This document shows, piece by piece, positions 43,829-56,202 of a DNA stretch of 64,000 bases. The DNA is from Thermoplasmata archaeon (GTDB lineage: Archaea; Thermoplasmatota; Thermoplasmata; Lutacidiplasmatales; UBA184). A program made the translations under genes and the position numbers. Under the pieces are notes generated by a model. That model saw only the letters and a program-made list of their open reading frames with translations, made no database searches and had not been told where the DNA came from. The stretch lies in assembly GCA_028864975.1 (NCBI GenBank), contig JAGWLG010000005.1, positions 1 through 64,000 on the forward strand, in the 5' to 3' direction. The number at the start of each line of letters is the position of its first letter. Position 1 is the stretch's first letter.

Positions 43829-46800
43829 TCACCGCGCGCCAAACGGAGGCATCTCGAGACTCCTCTGACGGAGGGCGATCGCCCCGCTCTGAGGGTCGAA
43901 CTCGATCCTCTCGGAAAGGATCGTGGGGGGGTGTCGGACCTGTGTCGCCCCCCCTGCTGGGGTCGATGGCGACGGTTTCGAAGTGTCGCCCGGAGCCGGA
44001 GACGCGCCGGACGCAACAAGGCCCCCGGACGCTCTCCTTCGAGGGGGGCGAAGGAGGAGGAAACCCGCCAGAGCCGTGATCCCCACCGTACCAAGGACCA
44101 GTCCCGCCACGATGGCCGGGTCCCCAAGGGCCGAGCCCGACCTGGCCCCACCTGGCGCACTGACCTGGACGTACAGCACGCTGCTGATACCCCGTCGCCC
44201 CGATGCATCGGTCACCAGGACGAAGACCGCATACTCGCCCGTCATCGCGAACGTGTGCGTGGTGGAGAGCGAGGTCGAGCTGAACGTGGTCCCATCTCCG
44301 AAGTTCCAGAGAACCTGATACGGCACAGCTCCGCCCTGTACGACCGCCGTGAACTGCGTCGGACTGCCCTCTCGCGGGAAGGACGAGCTCCAGAAGCTGA
44401 CGTTCAGAGGAAGGTCCCCTCCCCCGCAGGATGTCGCGTTGACGATGGCGATCGCGGGAAGGGTCGCCGAGTCCCCCACTTGGTCCTCCACGGTGAGACG
44501 GGGATGATAGGTTCCCGGGACCGAGTAGTTGTACGAGATGGTCGCGGGGCCCTGGACCGTGCCCGCTCCGGTGAAGTTCCAGAGGAAGGTGTACGGGGGG
44601 ACTCCCCCCGTCGCGGAAGCCTGAAAGACGACGTTGACCGGCGCGCAGGCGCTGACGCTGGTCGCCGTGGCCGATCCCACGAGGACGGTGCCGTTCCCTC
44701 CCCCGCCGCTCTCGTTGACCTGGATGCGCAGCGACGCGATGGCGCTGTTCCCCCCGCTGTCGTTGACGAGAACGGTGGCCTCGTAGGTACCGGGGGTCGG
44801 GTAGGTATAGGCCGGGCAGGCCTCGGAAGACGCTCCCCCGTTCCCGAAGGTCCACGCATAGGTGTAGGGCGCGAGCCCTCCCGCGACCTGGGCACAGAAC
44901 TGGACCGCGAGCGGCGCCGTACCGCTCGTAGGCTCGCCCGAGACCTGGATCAGGACCGACGAGGAGCCGTTAGGGTCGACCGTGACCATCAACGCGGCGC
45001 TTGTCGCAGAGTTCCCGCGGGCATCCGTGACGAGAAGCTGGACAGTGAAAGTTCCGGTCGCGTAGATGGTGCAACTGAAGCTCGCGTTCCTGGGAGCGGT
45101 GCAGGGGACCCCCGTCCAAGCGAAGGCATAGGGGGGAGCGCCGCCGGAGGCCGCTCCGGTGAACTGGACGAGCAAAGGCGCGACCCCGGTCGTCGGATCC
45201 GCGGAAGCCGTGGCCGAGAGCGCTGGGGGTGAGGTGACGACGACGGTCACGCTGGTCGATGCGGAAGCGCCCGTCGAGTCGGTGGCCACGACGGTGGCGG
45301 TGAAGGTTCCTGGCGTCGAATAGATGTGACTCACCGTGGCCCCCGTGGCCGTCGAACCGTCGCCGAGGTCCCAGCTCCAAGAGTAGGGGGGCGATCCCCC
45401 CGCCGTGGCGGCGTCCAGGGTGCAGGGAGTTCCAAAGCCGACGGGGTCCGGCGTGGCGCTCGCCGCTACATGGAGCGTGGTCGAACTGGTCACGTTCAGC
45501 GTCCAGGTGTCACCAAAGAGGGTGGTCGACGTGCCGCCCCCGAAGTAGAGGACGTACCCCTCGGCGGGGTCGTAGGCCATGGCGGCGCCGGCACGGCCGT
45601 CGGGCATCGCCGTGAGCAGACTCGTCAAGTTCGTCCAGTTCGCTCCCGACAGGCTCCACAGCTCTACACAGCTGGTCGGGCCGCTGCAGGAATGCCGCGG
45701 CCACGTGTCCGTGAAAGGGAGGAGGACCCCTTGAGCGGCCGGATCGTCGACCATCTGCTCCCACCCCCCGAAGGGCGGCTCTGGGCTCCACGTATCGACC
45801 TTCCATGCCCCGTTCTGGTACAGACAGGTCCCGTAGGTGTCGTTCCCCCCTACGGAGACCAAGTAGGCGTCGGTCGAGTCGAAGGTGAGAGGGTCAAGGA
45901 GGGTGCAAGAGTCGACCGCAGCATCCTGCCACCAGGTCCCCGCGTGGTAGAAATCGAGCGGGCTCGCTGACGGGGTAGGGTTCGGGTAGCGCCCGATCAA
46001 GGCTACCGCAGCCGCGACCGGGTCGTAGGTAAGGTCCGGGGCGTACGACCATGACCCGAGGGACGAGGGAAGGGTCCCTTCCAGCTGCCACTGGTCATTG
46101 GAGAAGACCCAGACATCGTTCAGACCACGGACCGAGCTGTTGGACCCGCCCACGAGGAGGAGGTACCCGTCCGCAGCGTCGTACGTCATCATCGCGCCGT
46201 AGCGCGGTGAGGGGGCGGTCGAGAGTCCCGCCGAGAGGTTGGTCCAGACCCCGTGCTCGAAGGCCCACGTGTCGCCGAGGGGGGCGCTCCTCGCGCCCGC
46301 TCCCCCGAAGAGGAGCACGGCCTGCATGGCCGGGTCGTAGGCGGCCGCCGCCCCCGTCCGAGCCGAAGGGGAGGCAGGGGTGGTGAGGAGGGTCCAGGCA
46401 GCGGATACCGTCGGAGGCGTCACCGTGATGGTGAGATTGACGAACGCATGCCAAGGCTGGGCCTGGGTATCGATCGCCTCGAAGGTCACGAGATAGGTCC
46501 CTGGGGCTGTGAACGTGTGGGCACCGAAGGTCCAGGTGCCGGTCCGGGCGTAGCAGTAACTGTTGCTCGGCCCCGCCCTCGCCCCATCGCCGTAGTCGAA
46601 GCTGCAGTCATAGTAGTAGTAACCGGCGGGGTCCCCCCTCACGGAGGTCTCAAACCCGACGGTGAGCGGCGCGGGACCCGCCGTCCTCGAGGCGTTCGCC
46701 CAGGCTTGCAGAACGAAGGAGGGCGACACTCCCGCCGGAGCGCCGTCGGTTTGAGGACCCGATGGGCCCTCTACCACGCTGCCGCGCGCGAGCGTTTCTG

Positions 46801-47095
46801 CCCAAGGGGGTGCGAGCTGCGGTCCGAGCCGTTGACCCGGGAGCTGCCAGTGGTCGACCGGCTCCCACAGGTGGGCCATGGCGTCCGATCGGACCTCCGT
46901 GGGGGTCGGCGAGTGGGCAGCCAACGACAGCGCCCCCGACACCGGGTCCGATAGCGGGCGTCCTGCATGGACAGCAAGCCCCGCTGGGAGGATGCTCAGA
47001 AGGAGCATCATGACCAAGAGGAGCACCATCGCCGTATCGGTCGAGCTCCTGGAGGGTCTGGGGCAGCAGCCCATTGACGGGCGCGATGCATTCAT
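43829..47095 (-). CDS. Giant PKD-kelch-PKD surface protein with C-terminal anchor
   Basis: A 1088-residue protein. Signal/anchor (MVLLLVMMLLLSILPAGLAV), a first PKD-type module with CSFDYGDGARAGPSNSYC (about 120-230), six kelch-like repeats (for example AYDPAMQAVLLFGGAG, MTYDAADGYLLLVGGS, MAYDPAEGYVLYFGGG), then about five PKD-type modules (WSWDLGDGS, YAWTFGNGG, VLWNFGDGT). A membrane helix (PAIVAGLVLGTVGITALAGFLLL) and a cytoplasmic tail of about 80 residues follow. One module carries a Cys pair (GVPCTAPRNASFSC). It differs from the other kelch proteins by having a PKD module in front. It is transcribed away from a promoter region rich in repeats (47147-47209). Confidence 0.8.
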   Translation of the reverse strand: MNASRPSMGCCPRPSRSSTDTAMVLLLVMMLLLSILPAGLAVHAGRPLSDPVSGALSLAAHSPTPTEVRSDAMAHLWEPVDHWQLPGQRLGPQLAPPWAETLARGSVVEGPSGPQTDGAPAGVSPSFVLQAWANASRTAGPAPLTVGFETSVRGDPAGYYYYDCSFDYGDGARAGPSNSYCYARTGTWTFGAHTFTAPGTYLVTFEAIDTQAQPWHAFVNLTITVTPPTVSAAWTLLTTPASPSARTGAAAAYDPAMQAVLLFGGAGARSAPLGDTWAFEHGVWTNLSAGLSTAPSPRYGAMMTYDAADGYLLLVGGSNSSVRGLNDVWVFSNDQWQLEGTLPSSLGSWSYAPDLTYDPVAAAVALIGRYPNPTPSASPLDFYHAGTWWQDAAVDSCTLLDPLTFDSTDAYLVSVGGNDTYGTCLYQNGAWKVDTWSPEPPFGGWEQMVDDPAAQGVLLPFTDTWPRHSCSGPTSCVELWSLSGANWTNLTSLLTAMPDGRAGAAMAYDPAEGYVLYFGGGTSTTLFGDTWTLNVTSSTTLHVAASATPDPVGFGTPCTLDAATAGGSPPYSWSWDLGDGSTATGATVSHIYSTPGTFTATVVATDSTGASASTSVTVVVTSPPALSATASADPTTGVAPLLVQFTGAASGGAPPYAFAWTGVPCTAPRNASFSCTIYATGTFTVQLLVTDARGNSATSAALMVTVDPNGSSSVLIQVSGEPTSGTAPLAVQFCAQVAGGLAPYTYAWTFGNGGASSEACPAYTYPTPGTYEATVLVNDSGGNSAIASLRIQVNESGGGGNGTVLVGSATATSVSACAPVNVVFQASATGGVPPYTFLWNFTGAGTVQGPATISYNYSVPGTYHPRLTVEDQVGDSATLPAIAIVNATSCGGGDLPLNVSFWSSSFPREGSPTQFTAVVQGGAVPYQVLWNFGDGTTFSSTSLSTTHTFAMTGEYAVFVLVTDASGRRGISSVLYVQVSAPGGARSGSALGDPAIVAGLVLGTVGITALAGFLLLRPPRRRASGGLVASGASPAPGDTSKPSPSTPAGGATQVRHPPTILSERIEFDPQSGAIALRQRSLEMPPFGAR

Positions 47096-47734: not shown

Positions 47735-50700
47735 GTGGGGCATTCCCCGTCAAGTTCCCGAGCGATGAAGACCGGGACCCCGAGCTCGGACATCCCAGGA
47801 CTCTCGAGGTCTGCCCAGCTCGTGGGCCGGCGAGAGGTCATGGCCGAGCTCCGACGGATCCTTCTGGCCGCGAAGGAGGGGACCGGCTCCACGGTCGCGC
47901 TCACAGGCCCCGGTGGGATCGGGAAGACGAGCCTCCTCCGGTGGCTGGACGAGGAAGCGCGGGGCGAGGGCTTTGCAGTGCGGATGGGTTTCTGCTTGCA
48001 GGGGATCGACGCGCCTTTCTTTGCCTTCGAGCAGGTCTGGGGAGCATCGTCAGCCATACGTGACCCACCGGAGAGCCCGGCCGGGTCTAGTGCCGCGGCC
48101 GCGGCGGACGACGACGGGGCCCGGCTCGCGGCCGGGCCTGCGCAGCACGCCTCCATGGAACTCCGGCCGCAAGAGACGGGAGCCCTCCCGGGACGTCCTC
48201 TCCCTTTCCTCGGGCAGGCCGATGACGAGATCCCCCCGTCGGTCACGCTCCTACGATACCGGGAAGAGCTCGCGCAGGCCTCGAGCCAACGCCCGTTCCT
48301 CCTCCTGCTTGACGACCTGCAGTGGGCGGATCCCCAGTCCCTTCAGGCGCTGCAGTTCCTCGCTCGAAACCTGAGCGAGCTCCGCGCGTTCGTGGTCGTC
48401 GCCTTACGCGACGACCCGCACTCCCTCCAGGGGACCGACCCGGCCGAGGGACCGACGGTCGGGGAGACCATCGACCAACTGGTACGGGAGCGGACCCTTC
48501 GCCGCTTCTCCCTCTCCCCCTTCACTCGCGGAGAGGTCCGCCGTCTGGTCGCCAACGCGCTCGGGGGGGGCGTAGTCTCCGGAGAAAGCGAAGCGATGCT
48601 CCAGATCCTGACCGAACGAAGCGGAGGGATCCCCTACTACGTCGAGGAGCTCCTCCAGCAGCTGCGTTCGGAGGGCTACGTCGAGCGCGTCCGTGGAGGT
48701 TGGAAGCTCCGGCCCCCGGAGTCCTGGAAGGGTGCGCGTCGCTCGGGGGAAGGGCCCCGAGCGCCCATCCCCCTCTCGCTCCAGCGCCTGCTCAGGGCCA
48801 AGGTCTCGCCGCTCTCCCCGTCGGAGCGACGCGTTCTCGAGGTCGGGGCGGTGGTGGGGCTCCGCTTCGACCTTGAAGCCGTTGCCGCCGTCACGGGGCT
48901 CGGGGGTGCCGAGACCGAGTCGGTCTCCCGAAAGCTCTCGGAGGGGAGCCCGCTCCTGGTCCCCCCGGGAGGGGGTGGGGCTTCCTGGTCGTTCGTCCAC
49001 CCTCTGCTGTGGGAATACCTCCTCCACGAGCTGGCCCCGGGGTCCTTGCGGCGCATCTCTCAGGACCTCGCGACGTGGTGGGAGGTCCATCGCCCTCAGG
49101 AGATCGGGCGGATCGCGGGGTTCTACCATGCCGCTGGCGATGCGCGACGGGGACCGCCATCGATCCGTCGGGCGCTCGAGCATGCCCGACGGTCCCTCGC
49201 CTTGGACCAGGTCGAGACCTACCTGGGGTGGCTGCGGGAGCTGCTCCTGGAGCAGGGAACTTCGACGGCCCTCGTCGTCGAGGAGCAGTTGTTCATCGTC
49301 GACGCCCTGCGCTCGCTGGGAGGCTTCGAACATGGTCGTCGGGTCCTCGAGGGCCTCACCGACCTTCCGATCCCTCCCCCCCTGCGAGGCGAGGTCCTGG
49401 TCCGTCTGGCGGATCTGGTCAAGAACTACGATCCAGAGCGGAGCCAGCGACTCCTGACCGACCTCGAGCAGGGGACTTCGGTCGCCGGGCTGGTGCCCTA
49501 CGGGACCCTGCTGGGACGGATCCGCGTCGCCCAGGCCTATCTCCGAAACGAACAGATGGACTACTCCAAGAGCCTGGAGCTCGGCAGCGAGGCGCTCTCC
49601 CTCCTCGGGCCGAAGGGCGACCCGTACGAACGATCTCGTGTGCTCTCGTACCGCGCGTCCGCCCTGGCCAATCTCGGCCGGTTCGAGGAGGCGGCCGCCG
49701 CCTCAGGGGGGGCCCAGGAGATCGCCGAGAACGCGGGGTTGATGGGGATCCTCGAGCAGGCCAAGGTGGGCGCCGCCTATGCTCAGCTCGCCCGGGGCCA
49801 CGTTCGAGAGGCCCACGAGGACTTCCTTGCCGCCACCTCGCTCGCCCGACGGTCCGGCCACATCCCCCTCGTAGTGCACGGGCTGCTCTGCGACTGTCTT
49901 TCCCTCCTCGAGTTGGGTCGGTCCGACGAAGCGCGAAGCTTCGCGGAAGAGGCGAAGCTCCTCGCACGGCAGTTCGGCATGCAACGGTACGTGGCCGAGG
50001 CGGAGGGCACTTTGGCCGCTATCGCCCTTCGTCGTGGTGACACCATCAACGCGGTCCGGCACGGGAAGATCGCGCTGGGCTTGTCCAGTGGCATGGGGGA
50101 GGGCCAGCGGGTCAGCTTCCGTCTGACCCTGATCCGCGCTTACGCCGCCAGGGGGGAGGGGGCGGCGGCGCTGCGGGAGCTCTCCGAGGTCCTTCCCCCC
50201 GGGACGGACCCGAAAAGCGCCAGCTATCCGGACATCGCGCTCACGGGCGCTGAGGCCCTTGAGGCCAACGGACGGTCGGAGGAGGCCCGGGCGTTCCTGG
50301 AGGCCTCCCTCTCAAGGTCGCGCGAGATGCGGCTGCCCCTCATCGAAGCGGACTCGCTCCTCGCGCTCGCGGTCTGGGAGGAGCGCCACGGGGGGGCGGC
50401 GGCCTCGAGTCGACGCCGAAAGGAGGCTGAAGCTATGCTGGCACCGCTCTCGCTCTCCCTCCATGGGCGCCCACCGCCCCTCCTCTCCACCCTGCATGCC
50501 TCCCGCCGCCCTCGCCCCTCCCGGAGCGAGCGAAGGACCCCCGGCCTCTCCACGGGAGACCTCGTCCTCCTGCATCTCCAGCGCAACCTCCGCCACAGCG
50601 CCCTCCTGAGCGACGGAGGGGCCGCACCGGTGGCCCTCACGCAGGAAGGGATCGGAGAGGAACTCGGGCTGTCTCAGGGACGTTTGGCCGCCCCGCTCCA

Positions 50701-50830
50701 ACGGCTCGTGCAACGAGGGCTCGTGAAGTGCGCGGTGTGCCACGTGCAAGGGTTCGAAAGGCGCCGAAAGGCCTACGCGCTCACTCGCAAAGGACTTCTT
50801 GTGGCGAAGGGGCTCCAACCCCGCCGTTGA
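47735..50830 (+). CDS. STAND/AAA ATPase with TPR-like repeats and C-terminal winged helix
   Basis: Up to 1031 residues. After a short N-terminus, SAQLVGRREVMAELRRILLAA opens an AAA_16-type ATPase. Walker A is GPGGIGKTS at 58-66 and Walker B is LLLLDDLQWADP with Asp193-Asp194. A helical sensor region and TPR-like repeats follow from about residue 450 to 900 (RLADLVKNYDPERSQRLLTD; LGRFEEAAAASGGAQEIAEN). The last 80 residues are a winged helix (APVALTQEGIGEELGLSQGR...HVQGFERRRKAYALTRKG). This is the plan of MalT-like STAND signal switches: ligand binding to the repeats drives ATP-dependent assembly, and the winged helix binds DNA. The GTG at 47735 or the ATG at 47765 could be the start. No membrane span. 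Confidence 0.85.
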   Translation: MGHSPSSSRAMKTGTPSSDIPGLSRSAQLVGRREVMAELRRILLAAKEGTGSTVALTGPGGIGKTSLLRWLDEEARGEGFAVRMGFCLQGIDAPFFAFEQVWGASSAIRDPPESPAGSSAAAAADDDGARLAAGPAQHASMELRPQETGALPGRPLPFLGQADDEIPPSVTLLRYREELAQASSQRPFLLLLDDLQWADPQSLQALQFLARNLSELRAFVVVALRDDPHSLQGTDPAEGPTVGETIDQLVRERTLRRFSLSPFTRGEVRRLVANALGGGVVSGESEAMLQILTERSGGIPYYVEELLQQLRSEGYVERVRGGWKLRPPESWKGARRSGEGPRAPIPLSLQRLLRAKVSPLSPSERRVLEVGAVVGLRFDLEAVAAVTGLGGAETESVSRKLSEGSPLLVPPGGGGASWSFVHPLLWEYLLHELAPGSLRRISQDLATWWEVHRPQEIGRIAGFYHAAGDARRGPPSIRRALEHARRSLALDQVETYLGWLRELLLEQGTSTALVVEEQLFIVDALRSLGGFEHGRRVLEGLTDLPIPPPLRGEVLVRLADLVKNYDPERSQRLLTDLEQGTSVAGLVPYGTLLGRIRVAQAYLRNEQMDYSKSLELGSEALSLLGPKGDPYERSRVLSYRASALANLGRFEEAAAASGGAQEIAENAGLMGILEQAKVGAAYAQLARGHVREAHEDFLAATSLARRSGHIPLVVHGLLCDCLSLLELGRSDEARSFAEEAKLLARQFGMQRYVAEAEGTLAAIALRRGDTINAVRHGKIALGLSSGMGEGQRVSFRLTLIRAYAARGEGAAALRELSEVLPPGTDPKSASYPDIALTGAEALEANGRSEEARAFLEASLSRSREMRLPLIEADSLLALAVWEERHGGAAASSRRRKEAEAMLAPLSLSLHGRPPPLLSTLHASRRPRPSRSERRTPGLSTGDLVLLHLQRNLRHSALLSDGGAAPVALTQEGIGEELGLSQGRLAAPLQRLVQRGLVKCAVCHVQGFERRRKAYALTRKGLLVAKGLQPRR

Positions 50831-50948: not shown

Positions 50949-53900
50949 ATGCGCTTCTCGACGGAACTCCGGTCGAACTCCCTGCCCGCGATCTCGCTCT
51001 TGCTCTTGATCATCGGGCTCCTTCTGGTCAGCGGGGCGCTGGTCGGCGGAACTTCCTCCCTCTTCAGCTCCCGGGAAAGCGCGGCGGTCCTCCCCACCGC
51101 GCTCCATCCCTCGACCGCGGCGGGGGCCTCGTCCCTCGCCGCGACCCCTTCCTACAGCAACGGCGCGACCTACCACTTCGACGGGAGCAACGGGAACGAT
51201 GGGCGGTCGGTCTGGGGGGTCAGCCCCTCGAGCTGCCAGTCCGTGGCGGGGTCGCGCCTGTGCATCCCCACCTCGGAAGGCTTCCTGGCCTACGATAACG
51301 GGGCTAAGGACCCCAACGGAGTCTCCGTCAACGCCCCGTGGTACATGGGCTCCTGCCGATGGAGCTGGGGAGGGAACGACTACGGGAGCGCCCCACCCTG
51401 TCTGGACATCTCGGGCACTTCCGGGCTGCCTCACGTCTGCATCCTCGCCAGCAATGGTCGCTCGGTCTCGGCCTACATCGATGACTCCGGCCCGGCCCCC
51501 TTCACGGGTCGCTACGGGGCCGGCGCGGCGACGATGAGCCATCTCGGGCTCTGGAACAATGCGGACCCCGACCCCGGTTACATCTATGCCGGGAGCTCCA
51601 AGGCCTTGGACGTCCACGATGGGAACGGCGCTTTCTGGGTCGATTTTCTAGGCTTCACAACGGCCGGTACGGGCCACTCCTGCACTGGGGGCGGCGGTAG
51701 CGGGGGAGGGAGTGGAGGAGGGAGCGGCGGGGGTGGAGGAAGCGGGGGACACTGCAACCTCTACGGCCCCCGGGTGTGCCATCCGCTAGATTCCAACCCG
51801 ACCCCAGGCGCGTGGTACCACATCCGGAGCGGCGACACGCTCTCGGGGATCGCATCCCGAGCGTACGGCCGTGCCAGCCTCTACACCATGATCGCGCACG
51901 TCGACCACATCGCCAATCCCGGTCTCATCTCGTCGGGATACTACCTCTGCATCCCTCATTCCAACGGCGGGGTCTGCCGGGCCGCGGGGAGCGGGGGTGG
52001 AGGTGGAGGCTCCGTCGCGTGCAACCTCTACGGCCCGCACAAGTGCACGCCCCTCTCCACCGCACCTTACCCGGGTGACTGGTACCGGGTCCACCGCGGA
52101 GACACACTCGGTTCGATCTCGCAGCATGCGTACGGGAACTCGAACAAGGCGTCGTTCATCGCCAACAAGGACCGGATCACCCACCCGAAAGTCCTGACCT
52201 CGGGCTGGTACCTCTGCATCCCCAAGACCAGTGGTGCCCTGTGCAAGGGTGGGCCGTCGGGCGGGGGCGGCGGGGGCGGGCACGGCGGTGGCGCGCACCC
52301 CACGTTCATGCCGTGGGTCTGCCAGTTCTGTTCCTGGTCGGGTTCGCGGCCCGCCTTCGCGAAGGAGTACGCGACCCTCGCCGGGGACATCCCGTCCATT
52401 TCCCAGGAGGGCTACTACCTCACGAGCTCTGGGGGGTTCGGCTCTCGCGGATACGCGGGGACGCTCAACGACCTGACGCCTTGGGCGAAGCAGCATCGCT
52501 CGGCGATGTTCCCGATGATCACCTCGTGCAACATATACGACCTGAACGCGTTCCTGACCTCCCCGTCGCTCTGGACCCCCTTCATCCACCTGGCGGTCGG
52601 CACGGCGAGCGCCAACGGCTACGCCGGCTACAACGTCGATTTCGAACCCGACCCCGGCTGCAACGGGGGGTCCGTCAACGGCAGGGATGCGGCCGCCTAT
52701 TCACAGTTCATGAGCTCGTTCGCGAGCGCCCTCCACGCCAAGGGGCTCAAGCTCCAGGGCGACTTCGCCCTCTGGAGCCCCAACTTCTGGTCCCTATCGA
52801 ACATGGGCCGCACCGGCGTGGACGACTGGGTCCTGATGGATTACACGTGCTCCGTGAGCTCGTTCCGAACGGCCGCGTCGACCGCCTTGCACTCGATCCA
52901 CGTCTCCCACTTGGGGCTGGGGCTGGACCCCGAGTACTGCGCCGGGTCTCCGCACGAGCTCTCCGACCTTCAGCAGGAGGTTCGTGCGGCCCAGCAGGAC
53001 AAGGTCAACTTCCTCGCCTACTGGGCGCTGGATGACGGCCCTGCCGCCATGCCCAGCGGGCTCTGGCCGACGATCCACGCCTTCCTCCTCGGCGGAAGCT
53101 CTGGGGGAGGGGGCGGTGGTGGCACGGGCGGCGGCCAGTGCGGAGGAAAGACGTACTGCCGCAGCGCGGTCGTAGCCTACGCCGACAAGTACTGGGACCG
53201 CGCGGTTTCGGACGGCTACTTCTTCTGGGACAGCTTGTGCCCGACGGGTCCCGGCTACCCGGCCCACCTAGGGAACGCGCACTACCTCTCCGGGTGCTTG
53301 CAGTACCACGGGGTCGACTGCGCCCACTTCGTCTCCAGCGCGATCGCGGCAGGTGGCATCTCCTTCTCGCGTGACTCGCACCGCTATGGAGGCTCGATCA
53401 CCGGTGACGTCAACGCCCAGGACCTGGTGAACTACCTCGTCTTCTCCGGCCTGGCCTACGTGGTCTCAAGCCCCTCCCATCTCCAGGTCGGCGATGTCGT
53501 CGGCTACTACGAGGGTTCGGGGGGCGGCTGGGGCATCGGTGGGACCGTGAACCACGTCGCGGTCGTGGACGCCACCGGTAGTGGCGGCCCGTGGGTGGAC
53601 GCCCACACGGGCTCCCAGCACCATGTCTACTGGAGCATGGGCGGCGGGATGGGTCCGTGGGTCCTGGTCCACATCAAGAGCCAGCGACCGTTCGTGAGCA
53701 GCGCGAGCTCGACCCCCACTTCGTCGGCCGCAGGGTCGGTCGCGACGAAGTCGGGTTCCGCACCGACCCATCTTTGGGCGATGGTCGAGGGCGGGGTCCT
53801 GACGACGCCGGTCAGCGTCCGTCTATCCTCCCCTTCCGAGGTCGTGAAGGTCGAGCAAGGGCCAAAGGGAGCTCCCACCGCTGTTCCTCTCCTGTGGGCG

Positions 53901-54080
53901 GAGCTCGCCGTGCTGGTCGGGTCTCCTTTCGGAGCGTTCCTGCTCAGCGTCGAGGTCGCAGCTCTCGCAGCCCTCGGGATGCTCGTGGTCATCTCTGGGA
54001 GAAAGAGTGGGACCACTTTGTCCTGTGCGCCTCGCGAGCTCGAGCCCAGGTCCGGGCGAAGTGCTCCCGGCGGGATTTGA
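50949..54080 (+). CDS. Predicted secreted LysM-LysM-GH18-amidase fusion (bacterial-type cell-wall hydrolase)
   Basis: 1043 residues. Signal/anchor (AISLLLLIIGLLLVSGALVG, 13-32), then a Cys-rich, Gly-rich N-terminal domain. LysM 1 is at about 288-335 (WYHIRSGDTLSGIASRAYG) and LysM 2 at about 377-424 (WYRVHRGDTLGSISQHAYG), each followed by a Gly-rich linker. A GH18-like TIM barrel (about 450-720) has Asp564-x-Glu566 in GYNVDFEPDPG. A Cys-His amidase/NlpC-like domain (about 735-900) has Cys791 in GVDCAHFVSSAIAAGG and His869 in VNHVAVVDA. A C-terminal membrane helix (AELAVLVGSPFGAFLL onward) ends it. LysM2-GH18 is the plan of bacterial spore-cortex enzymes. The last 18 bases overlap the tRNA gene. 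An archaeon of this kind should lack peptidoglycan, so an antibacterial role is possible. Confidence 0.82.
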   Translation: MRFSTELRSNSLPAISLLLLIIGLLLVSGALVGGTSSLFSSRESAAVLPTALHPSTAAGASSLAATPSYSNGATYHFDGSNGNDGRSVWGVSPSSCQSVAGSRLCIPTSEGFLAYDNGAKDPNGVSVNAPWYMGSCRWSWGGNDYGSAPPCLDISGTSGLPHVCILASNGRSVSAYIDDSGPAPFTGRYGAGAATMSHLGLWNNADPDPGYIYAGSSKALDVHDGNGAFWVDFLGFTTAGTGHSCTGGGGSGGGSGGGSGGGGGSGGHCNLYGPRVCHPLDSNPTPGAWYHIRSGDTLSGIASRAYGRASLYTMIAHVDHIANPGLISSGYYLCIPHSNGGVCRAAGSGGGGGGSVACNLYGPHKCTPLSTAPYPGDWYRVHRGDTLGSISQHAYGNSNKASFIANKDRITHPKVLTSGWYLCIPKTSGALCKGGPSGGGGGGGHGGGAHPTFMPWVCQFCSWSGSRPAFAKEYATLAGDIPSISQEGYYLTSSGGFGSRGYAGTLNDLTPWAKQHRSAMFPMITSCNIYDLNAFLTSPSLWTPFIHLAVGTASANGYAGYNVDFEPDPGCNGGSVNGRDAAAYSQFMSSFASALHAKGLKLQGDFALWSPNFWSLSNMGRTGVDDWVLMDYTCSVSSFRTAASTALHSIHVSHLGLGLDPEYCAGSPHELSDLQQEVRAAQQDKVNFLAYWALDDGPAAMPSGLWPTIHAFLLGGSSGGGGGGGTGGGQCGGKTYCRSAVVAYADKYWDRAVSDGYFFWDSLCPTGPGYPAHLGNAHYLSGCLQYHGVDCAHFVSSAIAAGGISFSRDSHRYGGSITGDVNAQDLVNYLVFSGLAYVVSSPSHLQVGDVVGYYEGSGGGWGIGGTVNHVAVVDATGSGGPWVDAHTGSQHHVYWSMGGGMGPWVLVHIKSQRPFVSSASSTPTSSAAGSVATKSGSAPTHLWAMVEGGVLTTPVSVRLSSPSEVVKVEQGPKGAPTAVPLLWAELAVLVGSPFGAFLLSVEVAALAALGMLVVISGRKSGTTLSCAPRELEPRSGRSAPGGI

Positions 54081-54164
54081 ACCCACGTTGGAGGGTTTCC
54101 TCGGCGGAGTACGTCGCTTCGCCTCGAAGGCCCTCTATCCTTGACCGGACTAGACTACGGGAGC
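54063..54164 (-). tRNA. tRNA-Glu(UUC) with a 28-nt intron, unusual base at position 33
   Basis: The minus strand folds as a tRNA. Acceptor arms are GCTCCCG/CGGGAGC. The D-stem is GTCT/GGAT with an 11-nt loop (AGTCCGGTCAA). The anticodon stem is GAGGG/CCCTC. The T-arm is GTGGG-TTCAAAT-CCCGC. The anticodon UUC (54126-54128) gives Glu, and the D-arm matches archaeal tRNA-Glu. Position 33 is C instead of the nearly universal U. A 28-nt insert (54097-54124) follows position 37, the standard archaeal intron site, with pairing GGCG/CGCC that fits a bulge-helix-bulge. The mature RNA is 74 nt. Its 3' end overlaps the end of the hydrolase gene on the other strand by 18 bases. Confidence 0.85.
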
Positions 54165-54256: not shown

Positions 54257-54901
54257 ATGACCTCCAAGAAAAGGCCCAACGTGCCCCACAAGGATGCCCC
54301 CGCCGCAGATCCCCTGGCGGGATCGATGAACGCCGGGCTCGGGGACCTGGTGGGGGGCTTGGTCGGGGGGATCCTCGAGCAGGTGAAGCAGCTGGCAGGA
54401 TGGGTCGGCCATCCTCTGGCCCAGCCGCTCGACACGGCCGAGGCCCAACTCACGAAGGGGGCCACCGGCGGCTCGGTCTCTTCCGCCGAGATGGCGAAAG
54501 GCCTCGAGGTCCAGACCCGGGGATTGACGGGGGCCACGGTCCATGTGGTCGGGAGCGACACCTCCTCGGGGGTCAACGTGGGTCAGGGTGCGGACTGTGT
54601 CTGGGTCGTTCTCGTGGGGGATGAGGAAAGGTTGGACCACGCGTTCCAAGCTCTTAGGACCGAGATCTCTGAAGAGAACACGAAGTACCCGGCTTGCCAT
54701 GATGTGGTCTTCTGGACCCGCAAGTGGGACGCCACCGAGTGGTCGAAGGCCTTCGGGGCCGGCCTGGGCCCGCTCGCCGCCAAGCCGCTCTGGGCCAAGC
54801 TCTGGGATGCGAACGGCACCCTCGTGGGTCCGGTGGCGAGAGCACCCCCGGCGCTCGTGCCGATGGGAGACCTGAAGCTCGATCTCAGTGGCGGGGCCTA
54901 A
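54257..54901 (+). CDS. Hypothetical protein with glycine-rich hydrophobic helix
   Basis: A 214-residue protein. After a basic N-terminus (TSKKRPNVPHKDAPA) comes a glycine-rich amphipathic segment (GLGDLVGGLVGGILEQVKQLAGWVG), which could associate with membranes without being a full span. An alpha-beta region follows (VHVVGSDTSSGVNVGQGADCVWVVLVGDEERLDHAFQAL, YPACHDVVFWTRKWDATEW). I recognise no family. It ends overlapping the stop of the Hps-RraA gene on the other strand by four bases. Confidence 0.6.
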   Translation: MTSKKRPNVPHKDAPAADPLAGSMNAGLGDLVGGLVGGILEQVKQLAGWVGHPLAQPLDTAEAQLTKGATGGSVSSAEMAKGLEVQTRGLTGATVHVVGSDTSSGVNVGQGADCVWVVLVGDEERLDHAFQALRTEISEENTKYPACHDVVFWTRKWDATEWSKAFGAGLGPLAAKPLWAKLWDANGTLVGPVARAPPALVPMGDLKLDLSGGA

Positions 54902-56202
54902 CCCACCTTCTCCCATCGCTCGAGCTTCTGGACCGAGGAGAGGGTCGATCCTCGCTTGATCTCCTCTCTCACGCGGTTCTCGTGCTCGAGCACGTCGAGC
55001 GCACGGTTCGCGATCTCCTGGGCCCGTTCTCGGGGCACCACGACCACGCCGCTCGCGTCCCCGACGACCCAGTCGCCGGGTCGGACCTTCTGGCCCCCGC
55101 AGACGATCTCGACACCGATCTCCCCGTGCCCCTTCGCCTCCCCCGCATCTGGGGCGATGTTCCGTGAGAAAAGGGGGAACCCCAGGTCCATGATCGAGTC
55201 GATGTCCCGGGCGGCCCCGTCGATGACCACCCCCGCCAACCCGCGTCCGTGGGCCGACCAGCTCGCAAGCTCGCCCCACATCCCCGTGTGACCCCCTCCG
55301 GCGTCGACGACGATCACGTCACCCGGCTGGGCACGGTCGATGGCCTCCACGGGTTTCGCCCAGTCTCCGTCCATCGTCCGCACGGTGAGGGCGGGCCCCA
55401 CCATCTTCGTGCGGAAGTCCTTGAGGTGCGGAAGGATCCCATGCATCGCGCCCTTCCGCTGGAGGGCGTCGGTGACGTTCGGGGCCGAGACCTTGAGAAA
55501 GGCCTCGCGGATCTCGGTGGCCCCATACTTTCGGAAGAGCTCGGTCTTGACCGGGGTCAACGTGTCGAGGGCCTTCCGAACGTTCCGCGTCGCCTCGGTG
55601 ATCTTCTCGGCCTTCGTGATCGCCCCTCCCACGATCACCACGCGAGCCCCCGCTTCGGCGGCCTTCGCCGCGGTCTCCGAGTTCAGCCCCCCCGCGACGG
55701 CGACGGGGAGTGGGGAGGCCTTGCAAAGCTCACGCAGCGCTTCGAAGGGGTCGACCCCACGCATCTGCTGGTCGATGCCGATGTGGAGGCAGACATAGGC
55801 GGCCCCAAGCTCGTGGGCCCTCTTGGCGCGCGCGATGGGGTCGGCGACCGCCAGAAGGTCGACCACGACCTGGGCCCCGTACTTCTCCCCGCCGCGGACC
55901 GCGTCCGCGATGGTGTCGTCATCGCTGGCCCCCAGGACCGTCACCAGGTCGGCCCCCGCCTTGGCCGCGATCTCCACCTCGAAGGAGCCGGTGTCCATGA
56001 TCTTCATGTCGGCCACGACGCGCTTGTCTCGGAACGCCTTCTTGAGCTCTCGGACCGCGTTCAGGCCCTCGCTCTTGATGAGCGGAGTGCCGGCCTCCAC
56101 CCAGTCGGCGCCTCCCTCCACGGCCTCCTTCGCGGCCTGAAGGGCGCGGTGGAGGTTCTCGAAGTCCAGGGCCACTTGGAGGACCGGTCGATCGGCGGGC
56201 AT
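54898..56202 (-). CDS. 3-hexulose-6-phosphate synthase fused to an RraA-like domain
   Basis: A 434-residue fusion known in several archaea. Residues 1-210 are hexulose-6-phosphate synthase: QVALDFENLHRALQAAKEAV, DWVEAGTPLIKSEG, VVADMKIMDTG, LVTVLGASDDDTIADAV and VAVAGGLNSETAAKAAEAGA. This half joins formaldehyde and ribulose 5-phosphate, and in archaea lacking the oxidative pentose pathway it runs backwards to make ribulose 5-phosphate. Residues 220-434 are RraA-like (ATEIREAFLKVSAPNVTDAL; VVDAGGGHTGMWGELASWSA; VVIDGAARDIDSI; WVVGDASGVVVVP). RraA-like domains include metal-dependent aldolases, so the second half may act on a related sugar. No isomerase (Phi) gene is next to it. Confidence 0.9.
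   Translation of the reverse strand: MPADRPVLQVALDFENLHRALQAAKEAVEGGADWVEAGTPLIKSEGLNAVRELKKAFRDKRVVADMKIMDTGSFEVEIAAKAGADLVTVLGASDDDTIADAVRGGEKYGAQVVVDLLAVADPIARAKRAHELGAAYVCLHIGIDQQMRGVDPFEALRELCKASPLPVAVAGGLNSETAAKAAEAGARVVIVGGAITKAEKITEATRNVRKALDTLTPVKTELFRKYGATEIREAFLKVSAPNVTDALQRKGAMHGILPHLKDFRTKMVGPALTVRTMDGDWAKPVEAIDRAQPGDVIVVDAGGGHTGMWGELASWSAHGRGLAGVVIDGAARDIDSIMDLGFPLFSRNIAPDAGEAKGHGEIGVEIVCGGQKVRPGDWVVGDASGVVVVPRERAQEIANRALDVLEHENRVREEIKRGSTLSSVQKLERWEKVG

Follow-up and report, generated by a model that had tools for sequence, protein, structure and literature searches.

The window, the first 64,000 nt of contig JAGWLG010000005.1 from a Thermoplasmata archaeon of the order Lutacidiplasmatales, contains an intact open reading frame of 1043 codons encoding a modular protein of 1043 aa (Table 1). 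A hydrophobic segment is followed by a domain of about residues 70–245, a Gly-rich linker, two LysM domains, another such linker, a GH18-like barrel, a third linker and an amidase-type domain. A Ser/Thr-rich stretch lies between the latter and a C-terminal helix. The main Gly-rich linkers, a feature claimed in the original prediction, were located at residues 247–268, 349–355, 438–448 and 719–729, and its numbering of D564, E566, C791 and H869 is correct in the translated ORF. The N-terminal domain and the C-terminal transmembrane helix had been overlooked.

Table 1. Features of the hydrolase gene and its product (positions in the window)
Feature	Position	Strand	Basis or remark
Whole gene: N-terminal domain, LysM2, GH18, Amidase_6, C-terminal membrane anchor	50949..54080	+	1043 aa; relatives under purifying selection
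N-terminal hydrophobic segment, residues 7–33, export signal or signal anchor	50967..51047	+	Hydropathy up to 2.82
N-terminal domain, no assigned function, residues 70–245	51156..51683	+	49% identity with G006:C34 protein
LysM 1, residues 290–336	51816..51956	+	Pfam PF01476
LysM 2, residues about 379–425	52083..52223	+	PF01476, second stretch; NCBIfam PRK11198.1, 377–427; PHROG, 378–425
GH18 (beta/alpha)8 barrel, residues 453–713	52305..53087	+	Profile against PDB, AlphaFold, Foldseek
D564-F-E566, predicted GH18 catalytic pair, end of strand 4	52638..52646	+	Family conservation; alignment with 4q6t and 5jh8
Amidase_6 (NlpC/P60-like), residues 736–899	53154..53645	+	Pfam and family profile
C791, predicted catalytic Cys of amidase	53319..53321	+	Invariant in eight relatives; aligned with CwlO Cys
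H869, predicted catalytic His of amidase	53553..53555	+	Invariant in eight relatives
H886, candidate third residue of C-H-H triad	53604..53606	+	Invariant in eight relatives; role inferred
C-terminal transmembrane helix, residues 986–1018, with basic tail	53904..54002	+	Hydropathy up to 2.5; in all four LysM-GH18-amidase relatives

Upstream on the same strand lies a gene (47735–50830, +) for a large regulator-like protein with AAA_16, MalT-like TPR and winged-helix domains, which ends 118 bp before the hydrolase gene. It is possibly a regulator of the hydrolase; it was not seen beside relatives of the hydrolase, and a search for a conserved gene neighbourhood among these relatives found none. 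Farther upstream, the gene at 43829–47095 (−) encodes 1088 aa with Kelch and PKD repeats and a hydrophobic segment at the C-terminus; the genome has several PKD surface proteins of this sort. On the other side, a tRNA-Arg(TCG) gene with a 26-nt intron (54062–54164, −) was detected by ARAGORN with introns enabled and missed by the default run. Its 3' end runs antisense into the end of the hydrolase gene, with an overlap of 19 bp. Beyond it, a gene at 54898–56202 (−) combines OMPdecase/HUMPS and RraA-like domains in an ordinary-looking metabolic fusion.

The gene resides in an archaeon, as originally proposed. It is carried by archaeal MAGs of the same genus and adjoins the intron-containing tRNA gene; on the same grounds, contamination by a bacterial contig was rejected. 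The promoter and ribosome-binding site first offered as evidence of archaeal residence are not diagnostic, because the upstream 'TATA box' amounts, by eye, to just TATGTATAC and the GAGGAG stands a single base from the ATG. Its high GC content and terrestrial habit are reminiscent of Lutacidiplasmatales (PMC9287336).

Profile searches support all three kinds of domain that had been predicted, LysM and Amidase_6 directly by Pfam and GH18 through a family profile compared with PDB. The LysM pair is recognized in two stretches (PF01476, 30.2 bits versus a cut-off of 20.9, E=4.4e-7). Its best PDB match is Ecp6, a fungal chitin-binding effector, followed by the potassium sensor Kbp. LysM is found in five of the 106 genomes of the order, including all four members of the genus, and in these four every LysM match at E≤1e-4 belongs to the LysM-GH18-amidase gene family.

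The barrel escapes the single-sequence models. Pfam GH18 (PF00704) has no match in the protein or elsewhere in the genome of the window, and NCBIfam is also blind to it. The GH18 assignment is thus based on the family profile and the predicted fold. A profile of 14 family members retrieved 4q6t (2.7e-16), 5jh8 (3.2e-8) and 4wiw (1.8e-6) as best PDB matches, with insect and human chitinases and Bacillus YdhD at lower ranks and YaaH/SleL only weakly (about 0.07–0.08). AlphaFold predicts a (beta/alpha)8 barrel with eight strands in order (mean pLDDT 88.9, pTM 0.90). Foldseek returned 438 PDB matches at E≤0.001. Those listed, 50 in number, comprise GH18 enzymes and chitinase-like proteins of the GH18 fold and are headed by a class V chitinase (3.4e-13) and the spore-cortex enzyme SleL (9.4e-13). 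A search of plasmids with the barrel gave a sole match, 29% identical to a Streptomyces GH18. In the predicted fold, D564-x-E566 is at the end of strand 4, the catalytic position of GH18 enzymes; 4q6t and 5jh8 have their own D-x-E at the aligned positions. Among 18 family barrels, D564 is conserved in all, E566 in 15, D631 in 16 (Asn in the other two) and Y632 in 14; all four residues are intact in the window protein and in four relatives from the same genus. The DxxDxDxE motif is incomplete, with A559 and N562 in place of the first two Asp residues. 4q6t and 5jh8 likewise have Asn at the second position, and the full motif is a frequent, non-obligatory feature of GH18. The barrel is of the GH18 fold, retains the acid/base Glu together with its partner Asp, and is predicted to be hydrolytic from sequence and model.

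The predicted Cys-His amidase domain is well supported. Pfam Amidase_6 (PF12671) matches with 44.4 bits versus a cut-off of 23.2 (E=2.4e-11), and in PDB a profile built from eight relatives picks up the peptidoglycan endopeptidases CwlO (2.8e-4) and MepS as well as Spr. C791, H869, H886 and a GD motif are invariant across these eight relatives, C791 being aligned with the Cys of CwlO. The GD motif is typical of the NlpC/P60-CHAP-amidase cluster, and Amidase_6 is listed among peptidoglycan-processing papain-like enzymes in a review (PMC10318531). The domain is of NlpC/P60 type with Cys and His in place, and cleavage is predicted.

A homologue of the N-terminal domain was found in one other protein only (G006:C34, 49% identical); Pfam searches gave no match, a profile search of PDB nothing credible and tblastn against plasmids chance matches only. 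AlphaFold, with a two-row alignment, reached a pLDDT of 30. A D-x-GP motif, which we take to be a mark of GH75 chitosanases, had hinted at such an identity; this was rejected since PF07335 is silent on both proteins (G000 and G006) even at E≤10. At the opposite end, hydropathy places a terminal helix in all four LysM-GH18-amidase relatives as well, and an anchor at the surface is a better fit than secretion. The protein, originally designated as secreted, is thus probably displayed at the surface and anchored in the membrane rather than freely released.

An exact peptide pattern scan of the genomes of 84,980 species, sensitive to close relatives only, gave five loci, all in Thermoplasmata. Within the order, 12 of 106 genomes have any relative of the hydrolase and 11 have Amidase_6. 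The LysM-GH18-amidase architecture occurs in the genome of the window and in the three other genomes of the genus that gave matches, that is, in all four sampled. The relatives named here come from MAGs, and the assembly of the window is itself fragmented (124 contigs, 90% complete). It encodes a second LysM-GH18-amidase copy (C64), a third Amidase_6 protein (C94) which combines an SH3-like segment, assigned by eye, with the amidase and PKDs, and two GH18-PKD surface proteins (C15 and C59). In the second copy and the relatives from the same genus, an SLT/lysozyme-like domain takes the place of the N-terminal domain. This label rests on E-S-x-F and A-x-G-I-L-Q motifs, because the Pfam SLT match is weak (E=0.11) and a profile search of PDB gave none. 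Elsewhere in the order Amidase_6 is joined to Glucosaminidase (1.3e-16) and SH3_3 (9.8e-22), to PPC and SH3_3, to an SLT-like domain and propeller-like repeats, and to GH18 and SLT-like domains. GH18 barrels of the same family are also found in Thermoplasmata PKD surface proteins devoid of murein domains. In the proteins L042 (4031–7594), L092 (3083–6472), L093 and L094, Amidase_6 precedes many 'GYWLVGADGGIFSFG' repeats. This part is probably beta-propeller-like; no Pfam model recognized it in the two proteins scanned. Two proteins of family f3 of the order (L090, 5384–10999; L091, 5816–11500) exceed 1870 aa and consist of repeated helical-looking units with a C-terminal Amidase_6.

Barrel and amidase evolve under purifying selection, with dN/dS of about 0.07–0.31 by a simple Nei-Gojobori count in which the larger distances are near saturation. 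In the barrel tree, where many forks lack firm support, the LysM-GH18-amidase barrels are near the GH18-SLT-amidase barrels of genus g2. Three proteins of the latter genus (L040, L043 and L044, about 1350 aa) have the acid Glu replaced by Thr, Thr and Ala, respectively, and have also lost the active-site Tyr. All three E566 losses and all four Y632F changes are confined to g2. The three proteins retain the SLT-like and amidase domains, so that the barrel may not be catalytic in every member of the family. Their barrels are still under purifying selection, and were probably converted into a binding module. Nothing was found in support of a viral origin of the family: profiles of the barrel, the amidase and the N-terminal domain led to no confirmed relative in IMG/VR. 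With the amidase, tblastn found no relative in phages or plasmids, and significant PHROGs matches are driven by LysM, except for one weak barrel match.

Taken together, the hydrolase is likely a cell-surface, membrane-anchored peptidoglycan hydrolase with two enzymatic activities, a reading in which we infer the substrate, the bonds cut, the topology and the ecological role. The N-terminal hydrophobic segment would export the protein, the C-terminal helix would anchor it in the archaeal membrane, and the domains would extend outward on the Gly-rich linkers. The LysM domains could grip a GlcNAc-containing glycan of a neighbouring cell, and the barrel would cut the glycan strand beside an N-acetyl sugar by substrate-assisted catalysis. 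E566 would serve as acid/base, and D564 and Y632 would hold the acetamido group in position. The stem peptide or one of its amides would be cleaved by the Cys-His(-His) domain. With both types of strand cut, a bacterial wall would give way on contact, which may serve to kill, to feed or to defend. The domains found together with the amidase (Glucosaminidase, SH3, LysM and SLT-like) point to murein as the substrate, and since Thermoplasmata are not known to make murein, the target is most likely bacterial. Bacterial walls, as proposed from the outset, are the favoured target.

LysM and GH18 by themselves do not distinguish murein from chitin, and chitin is a possible substrate of this half of the protein. 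An enzyme directed at chitin or fungal walls, with LysM binding chitin, GH18 acting as a chitinase and the cysteine domain trimming protein or amide-linked material, would fit an archaeon feeding on fungal or arthropod remains. The class V chitinases at the top of both the profile and fold searches, the match of LysM to Ecp6 and the related barrels of PKD surface proteins that carry no murein domain are consistent with it. However, it is hard to see what an NlpC/P60-type amidase would do on chitin, its partners in the order are Glucosaminidase, SH3_3 and SLT-like domains, SleL is the second-best fold match (among the 50 listed of 438), and the protein has no Pfam-detectable chitin-binding module. 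We therefore consider a dedicated chitin hydrolase unlikely.

Somewhat less likely still is a housekeeping enzyme that remodels the glycoproteins or glycolipids of its own envelope, with a barrel that cleaves N-glycans as an endoglycosidase and a cysteine domain that works as protease or transferase. The membrane tether would suit such a role, as would the presence of same-family barrels in further Thermoplasmata surface proteins with PKD domains and the weak score of one family barrel with GH85, an endoglycosidase clan relative (E=0.035). The near absence of LysM from the rest of the order and the association of the amidase with murein enzymes speak against it, and the patchy distribution of relatives is unlike that of a housekeeping gene. 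The Glu-less g2 barrels under purifying selection would suit a protein for binding or adhesion, in which LysM and a non-catalytic barrel bind sugar and the amidase alone, or nothing, is active. This we regard as very unlikely for the window protein, in which the four barrel residues, as in its four same-genus relatives, and C791, H869 and H886 are all intact.

Modular peptidoglycan hydrolases of archaea are already known. Woldo and Danwoldo of Halogranum salarium are of this kind; two hydrolases of one haloarchaeon were shown to kill bacteria, and Thermoplasmatota are named as one of the phyla rich in homologues (Strock et al. 2025, PMC12352652). The window protein resembles them in being archaeal and patchily distributed and in combining at least one murein-cleaving with at least one wall-binding domain; Amidase_6 and LysM agree with the domain definition of that study, the comparison being with the definition rather than with its curated Pfam list. 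The family dissected there, found by Pfam in haloarchaea, is M23 with PG_binding_1, whereas the window protein has LysM2, a GH18 barrel missed by Pfam, Amidase_6 and a probable membrane anchor. In domain order it resembles SleL/YaaH, where two LysM domains also precede the GH18 barrel. The spore-cortex precedent originally invoked thus holds, as SleL has a LysM pair (PMC4004799) and ranks second in fold among the matches listed, with sequence identity of only about 13% in the fold alignment. The window protein shares Cys-His-His and GD with CwlO and MepS. It differs from these in being archaeal and probably membrane-anchored, with the amidase fused to LysM2-GH18. SleL, which degrades the cortex of the cell's own spore, is not known to have an amidase domain or an anchor at the C-terminus. 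From the class V chitinases 4q6t and 5jh8, with which it shares the fold, D-x-E at strand 4 and M-x-Y at strand 6, the barrel differs in being shorter, below Pfam detection and with Ala for the first Asp of DxxDxDxE. A literature search covering few subscription journals found no publication on the LysM-GH18-amidase architecture. What sets the window protein apart within this known kind is the two-enzyme, probably tethered architecture from an uncultured Thermoplasmata lineage. Surveys based on Pfam would log such a protein as an amidase only, since both Pfam and NCBIfam miss the barrel.

The many combinations of LysM, SLT-like, GH18, amidase, SH3, PKD and propeller-like modules allow a broader, tentative reading, possible rather than probable: the genus may possess a set of membrane-tethered lysins, assembled from shuffled modules and directed at murein, for contact-dependent digestion of living bacteria, with some GH18 barrels of the sister genus recycled as non-catalytic wall-binders. 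The enzymology of the hydrolase can be tested with recombinant protein alone. If the proposed model is true, two complementary chemistries on a probable membrane tether would make the attack of this archaeon on bacteria contact-dependent.
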